Positions 16,410 through 25,183 of a DNA stretch of 59,808 nucleotides are shown in pieces (the stretch's first letter is position 1; every line of letters begins with the position of its first letter). Position numbers and translations under genes: made by a program. This stretch comes from Microbacteriaceae bacterium (GTDB lineage Bacteria; Actinomycetota; Actinomycetes; Actinomycetales; Microbacteriaceae). The notes under the pieces were generated by a model. That model was not told where the DNA came from, ran no database searches, and saw nothing but the letters and a program-made list of their open reading frames with translations. Location of the stretch: the NCBI GenBank assembly GCA_003852775.1, contig RDDZ01000056.1, forward strand, positions 1 through 59,808, read 5' to 3'.

Positions 16410-16521
16410 GGTGTGACCCTCCTTCGGCCTCCGCCCACGCTACCCCGGCCGACTGTCCGCCCGCGCGGGGGTTGCGCCGAGCGCCCGAGATGCGTATCAC
16501 CTGAATGTTCGCCCCGAGTTC

Positions 16522-16554
16522 GACCGATCGGTCAGTTTCTTGACCGATCGGTCA
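16522..16554. promoter_or_regulatory. twin palindromic operators upstream of tetR
   Basis: Two copies of the perfect palindrome GACCGATCGGTC (16522-16533 and 16542-16553), each within 'tgACCGATCGGTca'-type context. Their centres are 20 bp apart, two DNA turns, so two TetR dimers could bind the same face. 'ACCGATCGGT' is the kind of site used by many TetR repressors. The pair ends 15 bases before the tetR start, so it should occlude the promoter of the tetR-MMPL-yhgE operon. Confidence 0.85.
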
Positions 16555-16568
16555 GCTACGGTCGTCCG

Positions 16569-17117
16569 GTGACCACTGCATCCGAGCTCCGAGACGTCGC
16601 CCTGCGCGAGTTCGCGTCCGCCGGCTACCTCGGCACCTCGATCCAGGCGATCGCCGACCGCGCGGGCGTCTCGAAGGCGAGCGTGCTCTACCACTTCTCC
16701 TCCAAGGAGGCGCTGCTCGACGCCGCCCTGAGCCCCGCGATGGAGCAGCTCGCCGCGATCCTGCCGCGCACCGCGCAGCTCGCGGGCAGCCCCGAGGAGC
16801 GCACCGGGTTCCTCGTCGAGTTCGTCGACCTCCTGCTTGAGCACCGCCTGGCCGCGCAGGTGTTCATCACCCAGTCCGGTGCGCTCGGCGACGTGCCGGT
16901 CGTCGCGCGCGCCCAGGAGCTCATCCGCCACATCGCGGACGCGCGACCCGACCAGACGCTCGACGACCAGGTGCGCTTCGCGGTCGCCCTCGGTGGCGCC
17001 GCCTACCTGCTCGCGCAGGCAGGCAGCTACCTGCCCGACTCGGCCGACGACGCACGGCTGCGCGAGTCCCTCATCCGCATCCTCGGCGAACTCCTCGCCC
17101 CTGTGCCCGTCCCCTAA
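16569..17117 (+). CDS. TetR-family repressor of the MMPL operon
   Basis: 182 residues; GTG at 16569. N-terminal HTH about 3-50 ('TSIQAIADRAGVSKASVLYHF'), then a helical ligand domain. No ribosome site precedes the GTG and a TACGGT -10-like element lies just upstream, so the mRNA may be leaderless. Two palindromes immediately upstream imply autoregulation. The MMPL transporter gene starts 14 bases after the stop, so the ligand is probably a lipid or toxic amphiphile handled by the transporter (inference). Confidence 0.92.
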   Translation: MTTASELRDVALREFASAGYLGTSIQAIADRAGVSKASVLYHFSSKEALLDAALSPAMEQLAAILPRTAQLAGSPEERTGFLVEFVDLLLEHRLAAQVFITQSGALGDVPVVARAQELIRHIADARPDQTLDDQVRFAVALGGAAYLLAQAGSYLPDSADDARLRESLIRILGELLAPVPVP

Positions 17118-17131
17118 GGAGCCCGCCCCGC

Positions 17132-20074
17132 ATGGCCATCCTGCTCTCCCGTATCGGACGCTTCGCCTACCGGCGCGCGATCCCCGTGCTCGTCGCCTGG
17201 CTGCTGCTCGCGGCCGGCGCGGTCGTCGGCGGTCTCGCGCTCGGCGGAACCCTCCAGGACTCGTTCAAGATCCCCGGCACCGAGTCGCAGAACGCGATCG
17301 ACCGCCTCGCCGCGGTGTTCCCCCAGACCTCGGGCGCGAGCGGGCAGATCATCGTGCACTCGACCGGCGCGCGCATCGCCGAGCTGGAGGACGAGCTCGA
17401 GCGCGTCGCCGAGGAGATCGCCGGGATCGACGGCATCAGCAACACGATCTCGCCCTTCAACGAGTACGCGACCGACGCGATCAGCGACGACGGCATGACC
17501 GGCGTCATCCAGGTGCAGTTCGAGGGCTCGCACGAGGAGGTGTCCGAGGAAACGCTCGCCGAGGTGCAGGAGGTCGGCGACGAGCTCGCGTCGAGCACCG
17601 TGCAGGTCGAGTACGGCGGCCAGGTGTTCCAGGCCTTCCATTTCGGCCTCTCGATCATCGAGGTCATCGGCGTCGTGTTCGCGGCGCTCGTGCTCATCGT
17701 GACCTTCGGATCGCTGCTCTCGGCCGGCCTGCCGCTCATCTCGGCGCTCGTCGCGCTCGGAGCCTCGATGGGCGGGATCCTCGCGCTCGCCGCCTTCACG
17801 ACGCTCTCGACGACGACGCCGATCCTCGCGCTCATGATCGGCCTCGCGGTCGGCATCGACTACGCGCTCTTCATCCTGTCGCGGCACCGCAACCAGCTCG
17901 CGCACGGCGTCGACCCCGAGGAGTCGGCGGCGACCTCCGTCGCGACCGCGGGCGGCTCGGTCGTGTTCGCAGGCGTCACCGTCATGATCGCGCTCGTCGG
18001 CCTCCTCATCGTCGGCATCCCGTTCCTCGGCCTCATGGGCGTCACGGCGGCGTTCGCCGTGTTCATGGCGATGGCGGCCGCGGTCACGCTGCTTCCCGCG
18101 ATCATGGGCCTGCTCGGCCATCGACTCGCGCCGAAGCCCGGGTCGCGCGCGGCCCTGCGCGCCCTCGCGCAGGACGCGCACGAGGACGGCGGCGCAGCGG
18201 ATGCGGCCCCCGCCGGGAGCGCCCCCGCGCGAGGGCGCCGCCGCACCCTCGGCGAGCGCTGGGTCGGCATCGTGCTCGCGGCGCCCGTGCCGTTCATCAT
18301 CGGCGTCGTCGCGCTGCTCGGCGTCGCCGCCGTGCCCGCGACGCAACTCGCGCTCGCCCTGCCCGACGGCGGCAGCTACTCGGAGGAGGAGACCGCGCGC
18401 CGCGCGTACGACCTGACCGCCGAGGCGTTCGGTCCCGGCCGCAACGGGCCCCTCGTCGTGACGGTCGACATCACCCAGACGACCGACGTGCTCGAGGACC
18501 TCGAGGCGATCGCCGACGAGCTCGCGGAGGTGCCGGGCGTCGCATCCGTCGGCACCCCCATCCCGAACGCCACCGTCGACACCGCGATCATCCAGGTGAT
18601 CCCCGAGACCGGGCCGTCCGACCCGGAGACGACGGCGCTCGTCGAGCACATCCGCGACCTCGCGCCCGCGATCGAGCGCGCCTACGACACCCCCATCGCG
18701 GTCACCGGCTCGACCGCCGTCGCGATCGACGTCTCGAAGCGCCTCGACGAGGCCCTCCTGCCGTTCGGCCTCGTCGTCGTGGGGCTCTCGATCGTGCTGC
18801 TCATGATGGTGTTCCGCTCGGTCGTCGTGCCGATCAAGGCGGCGCTCGGCTACCTCCTGTCGGTGTTCGCGTCGTTCGGCGTCGTCGTCGCGGTGTTCCA
18901 GTGGGGCTGGGGCGCCGAGCTGCTCCACGTCGAGCCGGGGCCGATCCTCAGCTTCATGCCGATCCTGCTCATGGCGATCCTGTTCGGGCTCGCCATGGAT
19001 TACGAGGTGTTCCTCGTCTCGGGCATGCGCGAGGCCTACGTGCACGGGGCGACCCCGCGCCAGGCGATCGCGCGCGGCTTCGCGGGGGCGGCGCGCGTCG
19101 TCACCGCGGCGGCGCTCATCATGTTCTTCGTCTTCGCGGCGTTCGTGCCGGAGGGGATGTCGATGATCAAGGTCATCGCGCTCGGCCTCGCGGTGGGCGT
19201 CGCCGTCGACGCGTTACTCATCCGCATGACGCTCGTCCCCGCCGTCATGGCGCTCTTCGGGAAGGGCGCCTGGTACCTCCCGCGCTGGCTCGACCGGCTG
19301 CTGCCCGACGTCGACGTCGAGGGCGAGGGGCTGCGCGCGCACCTCGACGACCTCGCGTGGGCCGAGGGTCGCGTCGCCCAGGGCGACGCCGTCACCCTCG
19401 AGGGGCTCGTCGGCGGCGTCGGCGGCACGCGCATCGGCCCCTACGACGGCCGCGTGCCGGCGGGGTCGATCGCGCTCGTCGGCGGCGAGGCCGCCCGGCG
19501 CCGACTGCTCGCCGCGACCGTCGCGGGACGTCTCCCAGCGATCGAGGGCCGCGCCCAGGTGGCCGGACGCCCGCTCCCGAGCGAGGCGTCGCAGGTCGCG
19601 CGCCGGGTGTCGTTCGCCGAGTTCGGCGGGGCCGCGCGCGAGGGCGAGCGCCCCCTCGGCGAGCTGCTCGCCGAGCGCCTGCGCATCACGGGCCCGTGGC
19701 ACCGCGCCTTCACGGCCCGCCGTCGCGCACGCGCCTGGGTCGCCCGCATCCGTGACGTGATCGCCGCCTCCGGCTCGGACACCGCGGTCGGCTGGTCGAC
19801 GACCCTCGCCGCGCTCCCGCCCGTCGAGCGCGCGATCGCGACCCTCGGCATCGCCCTCGCCGAGCGCACGCCCGTCGTCGTGCTCGACTCGGTCGACCCG
19901 CTCCCGGGTGCCGACGGCGGTGCCGCCTTCCTCCAGGCGGCCGACCGCCTCGCCCCGGCCGTCACAACCGTCGTGATCGGCGCCGCCGACGCCGACGACG
20001 TCGCGCCCCCGCCGCTCTCCCGGCCGGTCGCCAGCTACCGACCCGCAGACCTCACCGAAGGAGCCGTCCGATGA
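17132..20074 (+). CDS. MMPL-family transporter with C-terminal degenerate ABC-ATPase-like domain
   Basis: 980 residues. Residues 1 to about 735 form a complete MMPL/RND-like exporter: 12 predicted helices in two repeats, each with an extracytoplasmic domain, and paired motifs 'GLAVGIDYALFILSR' and 'GLAMDYEVFLVSGMRE' bearing the Asp residues expected for proton coupling. Residues about 745-980 read like an ABC nucleotide-binding domain, but the P-loop position is G784-x4-R-R790-R with Arg for Lys, the signature is 'LPPVE' instead of LSGGQ, and Walker B is 'VVVLD919-S920' without the catalytic Glu. It should not hydrolyse ATP. AGGAG precedes the ATG. The last codons overlap the next gene (ATGA). 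Confidence 0.9.
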   Translation: MAILLSRIGRFAYRRAIPVLVAWLLLAAGAVVGGLALGGTLQDSFKIPGTESQNAIDRLAAVFPQTSGASGQIIVHSTGARIAELEDELERVAEEIAGIDGISNTISPFNEYATDAISDDGMTGVIQVQFEGSHEEVSEETLAEVQEVGDELASSTVQVEYGGQVFQAFHFGLSIIEVIGVVFAALVLIVTFGSLLSAGLPLISALVALGASMGGILALAAFTTLSTTTPILALMIGLAVGIDYALFILSRHRNQLAHGVDPEESAATSVATAGGSVVFAGVTVMIALVGLLIVGIPFLGLMGVTAAFAVFMAMAAAVTLLPAIMGLLGHRLAPKPGSRAALRALAQDAHEDGGAADAAPAGSAPARGRRRTLGERWVGIVLAAPVPFIIGVVALLGVAAVPATQLALALPDGGSYSEEETARRAYDLTAEAFGPGRNGPLVVTVDITQTTDVLEDLEAIADELAEVPGVASVGTPIPNATVDTAIIQVIPETGPSDPETTALVEHIRDLAPAIERAYDTPIAVTGSTAVAIDVSKRLDEALLPFGLVVVGLSIVLLMMVFRSVVVPIKAALGYLLSVFASFGVVVAVFQWGWGAELLHVEPGPILSFMPILLMAILFGLAMDYEVFLVSGMREAYVHGATPRQAIARGFAGAARVVTAAALIMFFVFAAFVPEGMSMIKVIALGLAVGVAVDALLIRMTLVPAVMALFGKGAWYLPRWLDRLLPDVDVEGEGLRAHLDDLAWAEGRVAQGDAVTLEGLVGGVGGTRIGPYDGRVPAGSIALVGGEAARRRLLAATVAGRLPAIEGRAQVAGRPLPSEASQVARRVSFAEFGGAAREGERPLGELLAERLRITGPWHRAFTARRRARAWVARIRDVIAASGSDTAVGWSTTLAALPPVERAIATLGIALAERTPVVVLDSVDPLPGADGGAAFLQAADRLAPAVTTVVIGAADADDVAPPPLSRPVASYRPADLTEGAVR

Positions 20075-21861
20075 TCCCCCACGACATCCCGGCCGCCCCG
20101 CGACCCCCGCGCCGCTGGGCGCGCGTGCTCGCGATCGTCGCCGCCGCGGCCGTCCCGCTCGCGTTCGCGGGCCTCACGATGGCAGCCCTGAGCGACGCGG
20201 GCACGGGCGTCGACCGCATCCCCGCCGCGATCGTGAACGAGGACGAGATGGTCACGCAGACCGCCGAGGACGGCACCGAGACCGTCATCCTCGCCGGCCG
20301 CCTGCTCGTGACCGAGCTCACCGGGACCGACTCGCCCGGCATGGACTGGCAGCTCTCGAACGCCGAGGAGGCGGCCGCCAAGCTCGCCGCGGGCGAGGTA
20401 TACGCGGTGCTCACGATCCCCTCCGACTTCTCCGCGTCGGTCGTGTCGCTGCAGAGCACCGAGCCCGTGCAGGCGCAGCTCGAGCTCGAGACGGACGACG
20501 CCCACTCCTACCTCGCGGGCTCGGTCGCGCAGTCGCTCGGCGACGGCATGGTGCGCGCCTTCGGGTCGGAGCTCACGAAGCAGTACATCGCGGGCATCTA
20601 CACGCAGTTCGGCTCGGTCGGCGAGGCGTTCGGTCAGGCGGCCGACGGCGCCGAGCAGCTCGCCGACGGCGCGACGCAGGCGGCGGCCGGCGCGCAGCAG
20701 TTCGCCGAGGGCCTCGACCAGTACACGAACGGCGTCTCGCGGCTCTCGTCGGGCCTGCAGACGATGCGTCAGCAGACCGCCGGGCTCGGCGACCTCGGGG
20801 CGGGCATCCAGGGCTACGCGGGCGGTGTCTCGCAGATGTCCGGCGGCCTCACGGCGCTCGCCCAGAACATGGCGGCCGACCCGCGGTTCACGAGCGACCC
20901 GACGCTCGCCCCCTACCTCGCGAACCTCCAGCAGCTCAGCGGCGGCCTCGCCCAGCTCGCGGGCAACGGCTCCGCGCTCGCCGCGGGCGCCGGCTCTCTC
21001 GGGCAGCTCTCGTCGGGCATCGCGCAGACCGCGAGCGGCGCCGCGCAGCTCGCCTCGAACGGCGCGGCCCTCGACTCCGGGGCGCGCGAGCTCGCCGACG
21101 GCACCGCGCAGCTCGCGACCGGGGCGTCCGAGCTCGCCACGGGCCTGCGCGAGGGCGCCGACCGCCTCGGCGGGGGCGGCGAGACGCCGTCGACGGATGC
21201 CGCCGAGGTCGCCGCGGACCCCGTCGGGCTCGAGGTGACGACGCGGAACGCCGTCACCCAGCTCGGCCAGATCATCGGCACCTACTTCGTGCCGCTCGGC
21301 CTGTGGGCCGGCGCGCTCGCGATCTTCCTCGTGCTCCCGCGCCTCAGCCGCCGCGTGCTCGCCTCGACGGCGGGCTCCGGCCGTGTGATCGGCTCGGAGG
21401 GGGTGCGTGCGGGCGCCGTCGCGGTCATCCAGGCGGTGCTGCTCGTCCTGCTGCTGCACGTCGCGGCGGGGGTGTCGTGGGCCCTGCTGCCGGCGACGCT
21501 CGGCTTCGCGCTCGTCGCGGCGCTCGCGTTCACGGCGTTCCACCAGCTGCTCACGGTCGGCCTCGGCCGCGCGGGGCTCGTGATCTCGCTCCTCCTGCTC
21601 GCGGTGCAGCTCGCCTCCGTCGGGGGCGTGCTGCCGAGTCAGGCGCTCGCGGGTCCGTTCACGTGGCTCGGGCAGGTCATGCCGCTCGGCTGGGCGACGA
21701 CGGGCCTGCAGCAGATCGTCGCGGGCGGCGACACGGGCCTCGCGGTCGGCAGCGCCCTCGGGCTCGCCGCGTTCGGCCTGCTGAGCGTCCTACTGAGCCG
21801 CGTCGTCATCCGCCGCGCGCGCCGCGCCTCCGTCATGCGGATGCTGCTCCCCGCCTCGTGA
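20071..21861 (+). CDS. YhgE/Pip-type ABC-2-like membrane protein
   Basis: 596 residues; ATG overlaps the MMPL stop. One N-terminal helix (about 17-38), a large extracytoplasmic region (about 45-395) that includes a long Ala/Gly/Gln/Leu heptad-like stretch with repeated 'GAxQLAxGA' units, then five C-terminal helices ('LWAGALAIFLVLPRL' onward). This is the YhgE/Pip (phage infection protein) and ABC-2 permease layout. The partner ATPase usual for ABC-2 is absent as a separate gene; the ABC-like tail of the MMPL protein may stand in structurally. Cell-envelope export is the likely role. Confidence 0.85.
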   Translation: MIPHDIPAAPRPPRRWARVLAIVAAAAVPLAFAGLTMAALSDAGTGVDRIPAAIVNEDEMVTQTAEDGTETVILAGRLLVTELTGTDSPGMDWQLSNAEEAAAKLAAGEVYAVLTIPSDFSASVVSLQSTEPVQAQLELETDDAHSYLAGSVAQSLGDGMVRAFGSELTKQYIAGIYTQFGSVGEAFGQAADGAEQLADGATQAAAGAQQFAEGLDQYTNGVSRLSSGLQTMRQQTAGLGDLGAGIQGYAGGVSQMSGGLTALAQNMAADPRFTSDPTLAPYLANLQQLSGGLAQLAGNGSALAAGAGSLGQLSSGIAQTASGAAQLASNGAALDSGARELADGTAQLATGASELATGLREGADRLGGGGETPSTDAAEVAADPVGLEVTTRNAVTQLGQIIGTYFVPLGLWAGALAIFLVLPRLSRRVLASTAGSGRVIGSEGVRAGAVAVIQAVLLVLLLHVAAGVSWALLPATLGFALVAALAFTAFHQLLTVGLGRAGLVISLLLLAVQLASVGGVLPSQALAGPFTWLGQVMPLGWATTGLQQIVAGGDTGLAVGSALGLAAFGLLSVLLSRVVIRRARRASVMRMLLPAS

Positions 21862-22803: not shown

Positions 22804-22907
22804 GCGTTCCACGGTAGCCGCCGAAGATGACAGCCAGGTGAAGTCACAGGAAGCCCCAAACCGCAAGCCCCCGGACGCGATCCGGCCCTGCGTGTACCGT
22901 GGTCGCC

Positions 22908-24395
22908 ATGCCCGACGAACGCTACAGCTTCGTCGTCGTGTCCAACCGCCTCCCGGTCGACCGCGTGGTCGACGAGGCCGGAACCGCGAGCTGGAAACAG
23001 TCTCCGGGGGGCCTCGTCACGGCGCTCGAACCCGTCATGCGCGCCGCCGACGGCGCCTGGGTCGGATGGGCGGGACAGGCCGACGTCGACCTCGACCCCT
23101 TCGACAACGAGGGCATCCGCATCGTGCCCGTGCCGTTGTCGGCCTCCGACCTCGAGCTCTACTACGAGGGCTTCAGCAACGACACGCTCTGGCCGCTCTA
23201 CCACGACGTCATCGCGCAGCCGAGCTACCACCGCGAGTGGTGGGACCGCTACGTGCAGGTCAACCGCCGCTTCGCCGACGCCGTCGCGCGCATCTGCGAC
23301 GACGGCGCGACCGTGTGGGTGCAGGACTACCAGCTGCAGCTCGTCCCGGCGATGCTGCGCGAGCTGCGGCCCGACCTTCTCATCGGCTTCTTCAACCACA
23401 TCCCGTTCCCCGCGTACGGCATCTTCTCCCAGCTGCCGTGGCGCACCCAGATCGTCGACGGACTGCTCGGGGCGGATGTCGTGGGCTTCCAGCGGGTCGC
23501 CGACGCGGGCAACTTCTCGCGCGCGGTCCGCCGCCTCAAGGGCTACCCCACGAAGACCCCCTACATCGACGTGCCGGGCCAGGAGGAGGGGGAGTCCCGC
23601 CGCGTCATCGCGAAGGCGTTCCCCATCTCGATCGACACGAAGGGGTTCGAGGAGCTCGCGGCGAGCCCCCGCGTGCAGGAGCGCGCGGCGCAGATCCGCC
23701 ACGACCTCGGCAACCCGAAGACGATCCTGCTCGGCGTCGACCGCCTCGACTACACCAAGGGCATCGGCCACCGGCTCAAGGCCTACGGCGAGCTGCTGCG
23801 CGACGGTCGGCTGAAGGTCGAGGACGTCACCCTCGTGCAGGTCGCGACGCCGTCGCGCGAGCGCGTCGAGAGCTACCGCCAGCTGCGCGACGAGATCGAG
23901 CTCACGGTCGGGCGCATCAACGGCGATTTCGGCACGATCAGCCACCAGGCCATCAGCTACCTCCACCACGGCTTCCCGCGGGAGGAGATGGCGGCGCTCT
24001 ACGTGGCCGCCGACGTCATGCTCGTCACGGCGCTCCGCGACGGCATGAACCTCGTCGCGAAGGAGTACGTGGCGGCGCGCGCCGATGAGGACGGGGTGCT
24101 CATCCTGTCCGAGTTCACGGGCGCCTCCGACGAGCTCCGCGCCGCGCTGCTCGTCAACCCGCACGACATCGAGGGCGTCAAGGACGCGATCCTGCGCGCG
24201 ATCGAGATGCCCCGGCAGGAGCGGCGGAAGCGGATGCGGTCGCTGCGGAAGAAGGTCGCCGAGAACGACGTGACGCACTGGTCGGACAGCTTCCTGGCGA
24301 CTCTCCGGGGCACCCGCGGCCAGTACATCGGATGGGGCGGCGCGGGGCCGCTCGACGCGCTCGAGTGGACGATCGAGCGCCCGCCGCGCTCGTGA
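22908..24395 (+). CDS. otsA: alpha,alpha-trehalose-6-phosphate synthase
   Basis: 495 residues; GT20 glycosyltransferase that joins UDP- or GDP-glucose to glucose-6-phosphate. Hallmarks: 'FVVVSNRLPVDR', 'SPGGLVTALEPVM', 'VWVQDYQLQLVPAMLRELRP', 'FFNHIPFPAYGIFSQLPW', 'GVDRLDYTKGI' and 'ALRDGMNLVAKEYVA'. ATG 22908 chosen over a GTG three codons upstream. Its stop overlaps the otsB GTG (GTGA), so the two are coupled for the OtsAB trehalose route, an osmo- and stress-protection pathway. Confidence 0.96.
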   Translation: MPDERYSFVVVSNRLPVDRVVDEAGTASWKQSPGGLVTALEPVMRAADGAWVGWAGQADVDLDPFDNEGIRIVPVPLSASDLELYYEGFSNDTLWPLYHDVIAQPSYHREWWDRYVQVNRRFADAVARICDDGATVWVQDYQLQLVPAMLRELRPDLLIGFFNHIPFPAYGIFSQLPWRTQIVDGLLGADVVGFQRVADAGNFSRAVRRLKGYPTKTPYIDVPGQEEGESRRVIAKAFPISIDTKGFEELAASPRVQERAAQIRHDLGNPKTILLGVDRLDYTKGIGHRLKAYGELLRDGRLKVEDVTLVQVATPSRERVESYRQLRDEIELTVGRINGDFGTISHQAISYLHHGFPREEMAALYVAADVMLVTALRDGMNLVAKEYVAARADEDGVLILSEFTGASDELRAALLVNPHDIEGVKDAILRAIEMPRQERRKRMRSLRKKVAENDVTHWSDSFLATLRGTRGQYIGWGGAGPLDALEWTIERPPRS

Positions 24396-25183
24396 CCGGC
24401 CGGCTGCCGGAGCCGCTCGTCGGCGCGCTCCGCGAGATCGCCCGGGTGCGGCGCCTGCTCGTCGCGCTCGACTTCGACGGCACCCTCGCACCCGAGGTCG
24501 ACTCGCCCGAGAAGGCGCGCGCCCTTCCGGAGGCCCGCGCCGCCGTACTGCGGCTGCGGGCGCTCCCGAACACGCGCGTCGCGCTCGTGTCGGGCCGCGC
24601 CCTCCGCTCGCTCATCGAGGTCTCTGACCTGCCCGACGACGTACTGCTCGTCGGCTCGCACGGCATCGAGCTGCGGCTCGACGACCCGAACGCGCGCGTC
24701 TCGCTCGACACCGCGGAGCTCGAGCGCGTCGACGTGCTGCAGGAGGTGCTGAGCCAGGTCGCCGAGTCGATCGACGACGTGTGGCTCGAGGCGAAGCCCG
24801 CGGGCTTCGCGCTGCACACGCGCCTCGCGACGGAGGAGAACTCCCGCCTCGCCCATCTCGTGGCGCTGCGCGAGGCGCAGGCCGAGCTCGACGACCTCAC
24901 GATCCGCGAGGGCAAGAACGTGCTCGAGTTCGCCGTGCGCTCGACGACGAAGGGCGAGGCGATCGAGCATCTGCGCCGCTACGTCGCCGCCGACGCGGTG
25001 TTCTACGCGGGCGACGACGTCACCGACGAGGACGCCTTCGACGCGCTCCAGCCCCACGACCTCGGCCTCAAGTCGGGGGACGGGCCGACGCTCGCCTCCT
25101 ACCGCGTGCCCGGCCCCGACGACGTGGCGCACGTGCTCGCGACGCTCGCGACGTTCCGCGAGGGCGACGTCCACGAGCAGTAG
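24392..25183 (+). CDS. otsB: trehalose-6-phosphate phosphatase
   Basis: 263 residues; HAD-superfamily phosphatase that releases trehalose from trehalose-6-phosphate. Motif I 'ALDFDGTLAP' (nucleophile and acid/base Asp), motif II 'ALVSGR', the cap with 'GSHGIEL', and motif IV 'YAGDDVTDEDAF'. GTG start overlaps the otsA stop. Length and order are typical of OtsB. Confidence 0.95.
   Translation: MTGRLPEPLVGALREIARVRRLLVALDFDGTLAPEVDSPEKARALPEARAAVLRLRALPNTRVALVSGRALRSLIEVSDLPDDVLLVGSHGIELRLDDPNARVSLDTAELERVDVLQEVLSQVAESIDDVWLEAKPAGFALHTRLATEENSRLAHLVALREAQAELDDLTIREGKNVLEFAVRSTTKGEAIEHLRRYVAADAVFYAGDDVTDEDAFDALQPHDLGLKSGDGPTLASYRVPGPDDVAHVLATLATFREGDVHEQ

Follow-up and report, generated by a model that had tools for sequence, protein, structure and literature searches.

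The stretch analysed here, referred to as the window, comprises 59,808 nucleotides of a Microbacteriaceae bacterium (GCA_003852775.1, contig RDDZ01000056.1) and contains two overlapping genes, one for an MMPL transporter with a C-terminal tail predicted to be a disabled ATP-binding cassette (ABC) ATPase, the other for a YhgE/Pip protein. The MMPL gene (17132-20074, + strand) is a complete open reading frame of 980 amino acids with an ATG start. Its residues 1-727 (17132..19312) constitute the transporter part, of the resistance-nodulation-division (RND) type (PF03176, 293 bits vs a cut-off of 20.5), followed by a linker with a conserved helix, residues 728-751 (19313..19384), in which D728, E730, G731 and W743 are invariant, and by the putative pseudo-ATPase domain, residues 752-969 (19385..20038). 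The next gene (20071..21861, + strand) overlaps the MMPL stop codon (ATGA) and encodes an ABC-2-like membrane protein of 596 amino acids (PF12698, 63.8 bits), which scores above both YhgE/Pip cut-offs (TIGR03062, 138.1 vs 102.2 bits; TIGR03061, 117 vs 96.15 bits) and shows a weak match, below cut-off, to the EsaA N-terminus (TIGR03929, 40.9 vs 122 bits). A complete MMPL protein followed by a YhgE/Pip gene, as read from the DNA alone in the initial annotation, is therefore what the locus contains.

Relatives of the MMPL protein were taken from public genomes, the best 80 of 214 being retained. At 44 loci (L005-L048), assigned either to named Microbacteriaceae or to actinobacteria whose record gives no family, the gene continues into the tail or leaves the contig. 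The 36 others (L049-L084), from Glycomyces, Streptomyces, Nocardia and others, constitute the tail-less set: the match is over by residue 750, and six translated members end at 732-761 amino acids. The alignment of tails, A1, holds 38 sequences, the window and 37 of the 44 tailed loci; left out were five loci whose contig ends inside the gene (L027, L034, L040, L044, L047) and two with an interrupted frame (L005, L026), reflecting either an assembly error or a broken gene. A second alignment, A2, of 30 among the 38 full-length proteins, served as the basis for conservation in the MMPL part.

When scanned alone, the last ~270 residues of the protein matched no Pfam or NCBIfam model at E<=10, and 2 of the 38 A1 tails, scanned singly, touched PF00005, with a best E of 0.1. 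By contrast, the A1 profile retrieved 243 PDB sequences at E<=10 (best E 3.8e-8), and the best 60 of these 243 are all chains of ABC or energy-coupling factor (ECF) transporters. AlphaFold predicted an ABC nucleotide-binding fold for the tail (residues about 752-970) with a pLDDT of 90.4 and a pTM of 0.88. Foldseek searches of this model against the PDB yielded 1001 matches at E<=0.001 (best 1.2e-10), the best 50 of which, most of them judged by title, are ABC or ECF transporter ATPases, with TM-scores of 0.53-0.63 relative to query length. TTHA1159 and the RASP-ECSA model are among these entries. These data bear out the proposal that the tail follows the order of an ABC nucleotide-binding domain, and no obvious new catalytic set was seen in it by eye. 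Family annotation hides such a tail, whose detection required both a profile and a fold.

Alignment with canonical ATPases places G-EAARRR at the position of GxxGxGK[ST], making the P-loop one residue shorter, LPPVER at that of LSGGQR and VVVLDS at that of hhhhDE. The motifs had been read correctly: a dead Walker A, GEAARRR, at residues 785-791 (19484..19504), a dead signature, LPPVE for LSGGQ, at residues 895-899 (19814..19828), and a Walker B strand, VVVLDS, at residues 915-920 (19874..19891), in which the Asp is kept. None of the 38 A1 tails possesses the Walker A Lys (Arg in 36), the signature Ser-Gly or the catalytic Glu, while the Walker B Asp is retained in 34. The claim that every catalytic element is replaced thus applies to the window and to all tails aligned. 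As a control, we examined the best 30 of 85 PF00005 matches in the window's own genome, domains and fragments being counted separately. All 30 carry Walker A, the Asp-Glu pair and a signature, taken as LSGGQ or a close variant (LSHGD, VSAGE, ISGGM); a regular-expression pass had missed a motif in 8 of them, and reading of these 8 recovered all motifs. We conclude that the tail is a pseudo-ATPase, predicted from its motifs not to hydrolyse ATP.

The tail belongs to a larger set of domains found next to YhgE/Pip genes. We searched the A1 profile against 296 genomes of the class, of which 248 matched at E<=0.001; since this profile also detects ordinary ABC ATPases, the low-scoring matches presumably include some of these. 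TIGR03061 served to sample YhgE/Pip genes, matching 128 of 198 genomes of the order and 77 of 246 of the phylum, loci being best matches only. Because the loci are those that score best with TIGR03061 or A1, sampling is non-random, and its scope is actinobacterial. Three forms of the domain were distinguished from the A1 tails. In the first, at L090-L094, the domain is fused to MMPL and has an intact P-loop (GPSGSGKT, GSDGAGKT, GPPGTGKT), with an LTRLERK-like signature and Asp-Asp for Asp-Glu; that of L092 matches PF00005 at 54.9 bits (cut-off 25). The second consists of separate genes whose open frames span 239 to 623 codons; many read GPSGSGRT, with Arg for Lys. The third comprises short fused tails without most of the helical subdomain (L123, L124, L129-L131, L133, L134), of which L130 retains an intact P-loop, GPPHSGKT. 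After removal of repeated places, 104 YhgE-linked domains remained: the 38 A1 tails, 5 fused domains with an intact P-loop, 7 short forms and 54 separate domains (57 before three repeated places were removed; L140 and L141 are nearly identical and come from different genomes). Not one of the 104 has the signature Ser-Gly or the catalytic Glu, one has the switch His in the aligned column, and 19 have the Walker A Lys (5/5 fused with intact P-loop, 1/7 short, 13/54 separate, 0/38 A1 tails). A regular-expression match to the signature at L149 was discarded, as it lies at the wrong position in the domain.

The association with YhgE/Pip is consistent across these forms. A YhgE/Pip gene comes next at all 39 tailed loci whose contig extends past the gene (5 of the 44 contigs end within it), while tblastn with the window's YhgE (E<=1e-3) detected no match in the flanks of any of the 36 tail-less loci, of which 35 offer 3 kb or more of downstream sequence and one (L052) 86 bases. 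As the rows are related, the link between tail and YhgE is strong, but does not amount to 75 independent cases. The initial annotation had suggested looking for tailed MMPL genes beside YhgE, and this arrangement proved common across Microbacteriaceae. In 20 neighbourhoods chosen among the profile matches (L115-L134; 8 separate-gene, 12 fused), a same-strand YhgE/Pip gene directly follows the domain in every case. A profile of canonical ATPases detected none in any of the 20, and no MMPL match was found in the 12-16 kb around the 8 separate-domain genes. YhgE is likewise adjacent in 15/15 separate domains among the A1-profile loci. Approached from YhgE, the domain lies upstream in 29/31 loci of the order sample (L135-L165, the window's own included) and in 15/26 of the phylum sample (L196-L221, four seen before), with none within about 1.5 kb in the remaining 11/26. 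A pseudo-ATPase thus precedes YhgE in 44 of 57 actinobacterial YhgE loci, four of them repeated places. Among the latter sample, L200 and L206 (genomes G682 and G591) are separate YhgE-linked domains from outside the class, with an intact P-loop, GRNGSGKT, no signature and Asp-Asp for Asp-Glu.

The statement that the ATPase of YhgE is missing as a separate gene holds at the locus, where none was found, but not for the whole genome. A second YhgE/Pip gene lies on another contig (G000:C10:13816-14301; L135, L222) and is preceded by a separate and far more degenerate ATPase-like gene, whose P-loop is unrecognisable (AETSERPTV); no MMPL match was found in 12 kb around it. Paired YhgE/Pip genes also occur, about 2.6-2.7 kb apart, as in G524 (G524:C11:502408 and 504969) and similarly in G477, G617 and G663. 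For three members of such pairs, L218, L219 and L220, the roughly 1.5 kb upstream shows no ATPase-like gene.

In a tree of 64 nucleotide-binding domains, a single branch (100/100) splits 58 YhgE-linked domains from 6 canonical ones. The 33 fused rows lie on one side of a branch (86/76) and, with the canonical domains as outgroup, are nested among separate genes; tails of the Microbacteriaceae type group together at 100/99. The same 33 fused rows fall on one side of a tree of 55 YhgE rows, with support of 97 in the Shimodaira-Hasegawa approximate likelihood ratio test, which fits a shared history of the domain and YhgE. Because separate and fused domains alike adjoin YhgE, the tail is the counterpart of a separate partner gene of YhgE. 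A single fusion is the simplest reading. Several other scenarios were discarded. The fusion is not limited to Microbacteriaceae, since fused relatives are spread over seven family codes (f1, f6, f7, f8, f23, f33, f45). No ancestral MMPL-ATPase-YhgE operon was found as an intermediate, the 8 separate-gene neighbourhoods being devoid of MMPL matches. Degeneracy is not a consequence of fusion either, as the separate relatives are degenerate too; with no MMPL match around the 8 examined, loss of catalysis does not depend on it. The domain tree implies at least 6 changes of the Walker A Lys. These forms, ranging from intact P-loop through changed P-loop to lost subdomain, allow the decay of an ABC motor to be followed.

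The transporter part resembles the MmpL3/MMPL family of the RND superfamily, not only by its PF03176 match but also by its predicted fold and its Asp-Tyr pairs. The full-length AlphaFold model (pLDDT 81.9, pTM 0.75) has MmpL3 (7n6b) as its best PDB match (E 1.6e-33). Asp243-Tyr244 (17858..17863) and Asp623-Tyr624 (18998..19003) are invariant in 30/30 rows of A2. In MmpL3, such Asp-Tyr pairs have been linked to proton passage (PMC10466384). By motif and order, rather than by structural superposition, the two pairs are likely the equivalents of the MmpL3 relay pairs, the first and the second respectively, and these relay residues suggest that the MMPL part may drive export by protons.

The fold, the lost motifs and the identity of the relatives, which are ATPase-like partners of YhgE/Pip, make docking to YhgE the natural reading of the tail. 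We consider it likely that the tail is a pseudo-ATPase derived from the partner subunit of YhgE, which docks YhgE/Pip to a proton-driven MMPL pump. According to this model, an MMPL pump would have acquired at its C-terminus, probably in a single event, the nucleotide-binding subunit of YhgE/Pip, which lacks its catalytic motifs and keeps its fold. Through contact with YhgE, the tail would serve as a docking module holding it against the pump, and the two proteins may function jointly in envelope export, as a single complex in which the tail site hydrolyses no ATP. More speculatively, proton flow through MMPL could move YhgE, and the extracellular part of YhgE could serve the MMPL cargo as a conduit or stalk. 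A candidate docking site is the stretch Glu848-Arg849 (19673..19678), which we take to lie in the region where ABC permeases dock. Glu848 is conserved in 87/104 YhgE-linked rows (51/54 separate, 5/5 fused with intact P-loop, 31/38 A1 tails, 0/7 short) and in 0/10 canonical ATPases. The tail is also under purifying selection between close relatives: in comparisons with L006, L011 and L041, the ratio of nonsynonymous to synonymous substitutions (dN/dS) is 0.24, 0.26 and 0.24 for the tail, and 0.25, 0.35 and 0.29 for the MMPL part.

Several observations weigh against this model. The Glu848 position and most of the helical subdomain are absent in 6/7 short fused forms, so docking there would need another surface. 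YhgE/Pip genes without an upstream ATPase-like gene (2/31 and 11/26 in the two samples) indicate that the domain is dispensable for some YhgE proteins. For three pairs at greater distance, the tail has a higher dN/dS (0.52-0.76) than the MMPL part (0.42-0.45), and relaxed constraint on the tail may apply there. These ratios come from a simple counting method and 6 of the 37 aligned relatives; in DNA this rich in GC, synonymous distances increase only slightly as proteins diverge and are probably too low. Lastly, the canonical outgroup of the domain tree consists of six rows, all from the window's own genome, and support for a single fusion is moderate rather than conclusive.

The initial annotation had also proposed that proton flow could drive the export complex in place of ATP. 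Its interpretation is supported in part, by the predicted ABC fold, the lost motifs and a family of relatives that are partners of YhgE/Pip. A simple proton-for-ATP version is weakened: the energy argument is possible but not required, because the separate relatives have lost the signature and the catalytic Glu as well, with no MMPL match in the 8 neighbourhoods examined. In the most far-reaching reading, the system would be an RND/ABC hybrid in which the proton pump replaces the ATP motor of YhgE and the dead ATPase relays conformational changes, as the fused end of an actinobacterial pseudo-ABC family whose whole ATPase clade is non-hydrolysing; we regard this as a tentative possibility. ABC and RND transporters represent separate energy-coupling principles, and such hybrid coupling, if true, would be categorically new. 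A protein that unites the two by way of a disabled ABC motor, retained throughout a bacterial family, would offer a test case for the movement or anchoring of ABC-type membrane proteins by means other than ATP.

A different role for the domain, unlikely in our estimation, is that of a ligand-binding sensor that does not hydrolyse ATP but regulates the pump, binding a nucleotide where the P-loop is intact and another anion at Arg790-Arg791 in Microbacteriaceae. The Walker A Lys kept in all five fused domains of L090-L094 and in 13 of the 54 separate ones would fit such a sensor, as would the Walker B Asp of most tails and the conservation of the replacing Arg-Arg at the former P-loop (36/38 and 33/38 tails). 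However, the repeated changes of the Walker A Lys suggest weak selection for nucleotide binding, and the window's shortened P-loop lacks Gly-Lys-Ser/Thr. Pairing with an active ABC ATPase encoded elsewhere, which would leave the YhgE transporter asymmetric with a single functional site, appears quite improbable. Heterodimeric ABC exporters of this kind are well documented, and the genome, with its 85 PF00005 matches, is rich in canonical ABC ATPases, but none lies beside the cluster: a canonical ATPase was found near 1 of the 44 tailed loci (L013, in the opposite orientation and some 2.4 kb upstream of the MMPL gene) and in none of the 20 neighbourhoods L115-L134. That the tail is a functionless relic undergoing decay, as its lost motifs, the subdomain largely gone in some relatives and its higher dN/dS in the three longer comparisons might suggest, is hardly credible given its presence at all 39 tailed loci that reach past the gene, its high-confidence predicted fold, its low dN/dS in the three close pairs and its family-specific conserved residues.

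The closest known systems each differ from the protein. No MmpL protein of solved structure is known to carry an ABC domain. MmpL5 is reported to bind the cytosolic protein AcpM (PMC12346298), whereas the MMPL protein studied here bears an ABC domain instead. The tail shares with ABC nucleotide-binding subunits such as CbiO and EcfA its predicted fold, its order of elements and an adjoining ABC-2-like membrane protein, but lacks the Walker A Lys, signature, catalytic Glu and switch His, and is fused to an RND-type pump. Its neighbour, above both YhgE/Pip cut-offs, belongs with the YhgE/Pip proteins, among them the phage infection protein, and resembles EsaA of type VIIb secretion weakly, below the cut-off. 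For Enterococcus PIP, the accessible text reports a YhgE/PIP domain of unknown function and names no ATPase (PMC4999554), unlike the actinobacterial loci, most of which have a pseudo-ATPase ahead of YhgE. ABC exporters with a degenerate nucleotide site, such as BmrCD, TAP and MsRv1273c/72c, likewise contain an ABC ATPase domain with disabled motifs; they keep one working site, while no working partner was found near the tail and all 104 relatives are disabled. Literature searches for an ABC domain on an MMPL protein, or for an ATPase beside YhgE/Pip, gave none among the matches listed, as judged from the accessible parts of these sources. Degenerate-site ABC exporters are already known; the novelty lies in the architecture, which employs a pseudoenzyme descended from a familiar domain. 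That all 104 domains have lost both the signature and the catalytic Glu could likewise explain why YhgE/Pip proteins have so far escaped recognition as ABC transporters.

The cluster begins with a gene for a TetR-family regulator (16563..17117, + strand), identified by a profile envelope at 16563-17114 in the open reading frame 16413-17117 (Pfam TetR_N, 59.1 bits). By tblastn, a TetR regulator lies upstream in 43/44 tailed loci, the exception being L048. Downstream of YhgE, a convergent TIM-barrel gene (PF01261; 21922-22866, - strand), with a downstream relative in 19/44 tailed loci, separates the cluster from genes for trehalose-6-phosphate synthase and phosphatase (22899-24395 and 24332-25183, + strand). 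An OtsA relative was detected in 7/44 tailed loci, many flanks being too short to tell. A trehalose lipid is the export substrate of MmpL3 and, with trehalose genes downstream of the cluster, a trehalose glycolipid is therefore a lead for the cargo of the pump.

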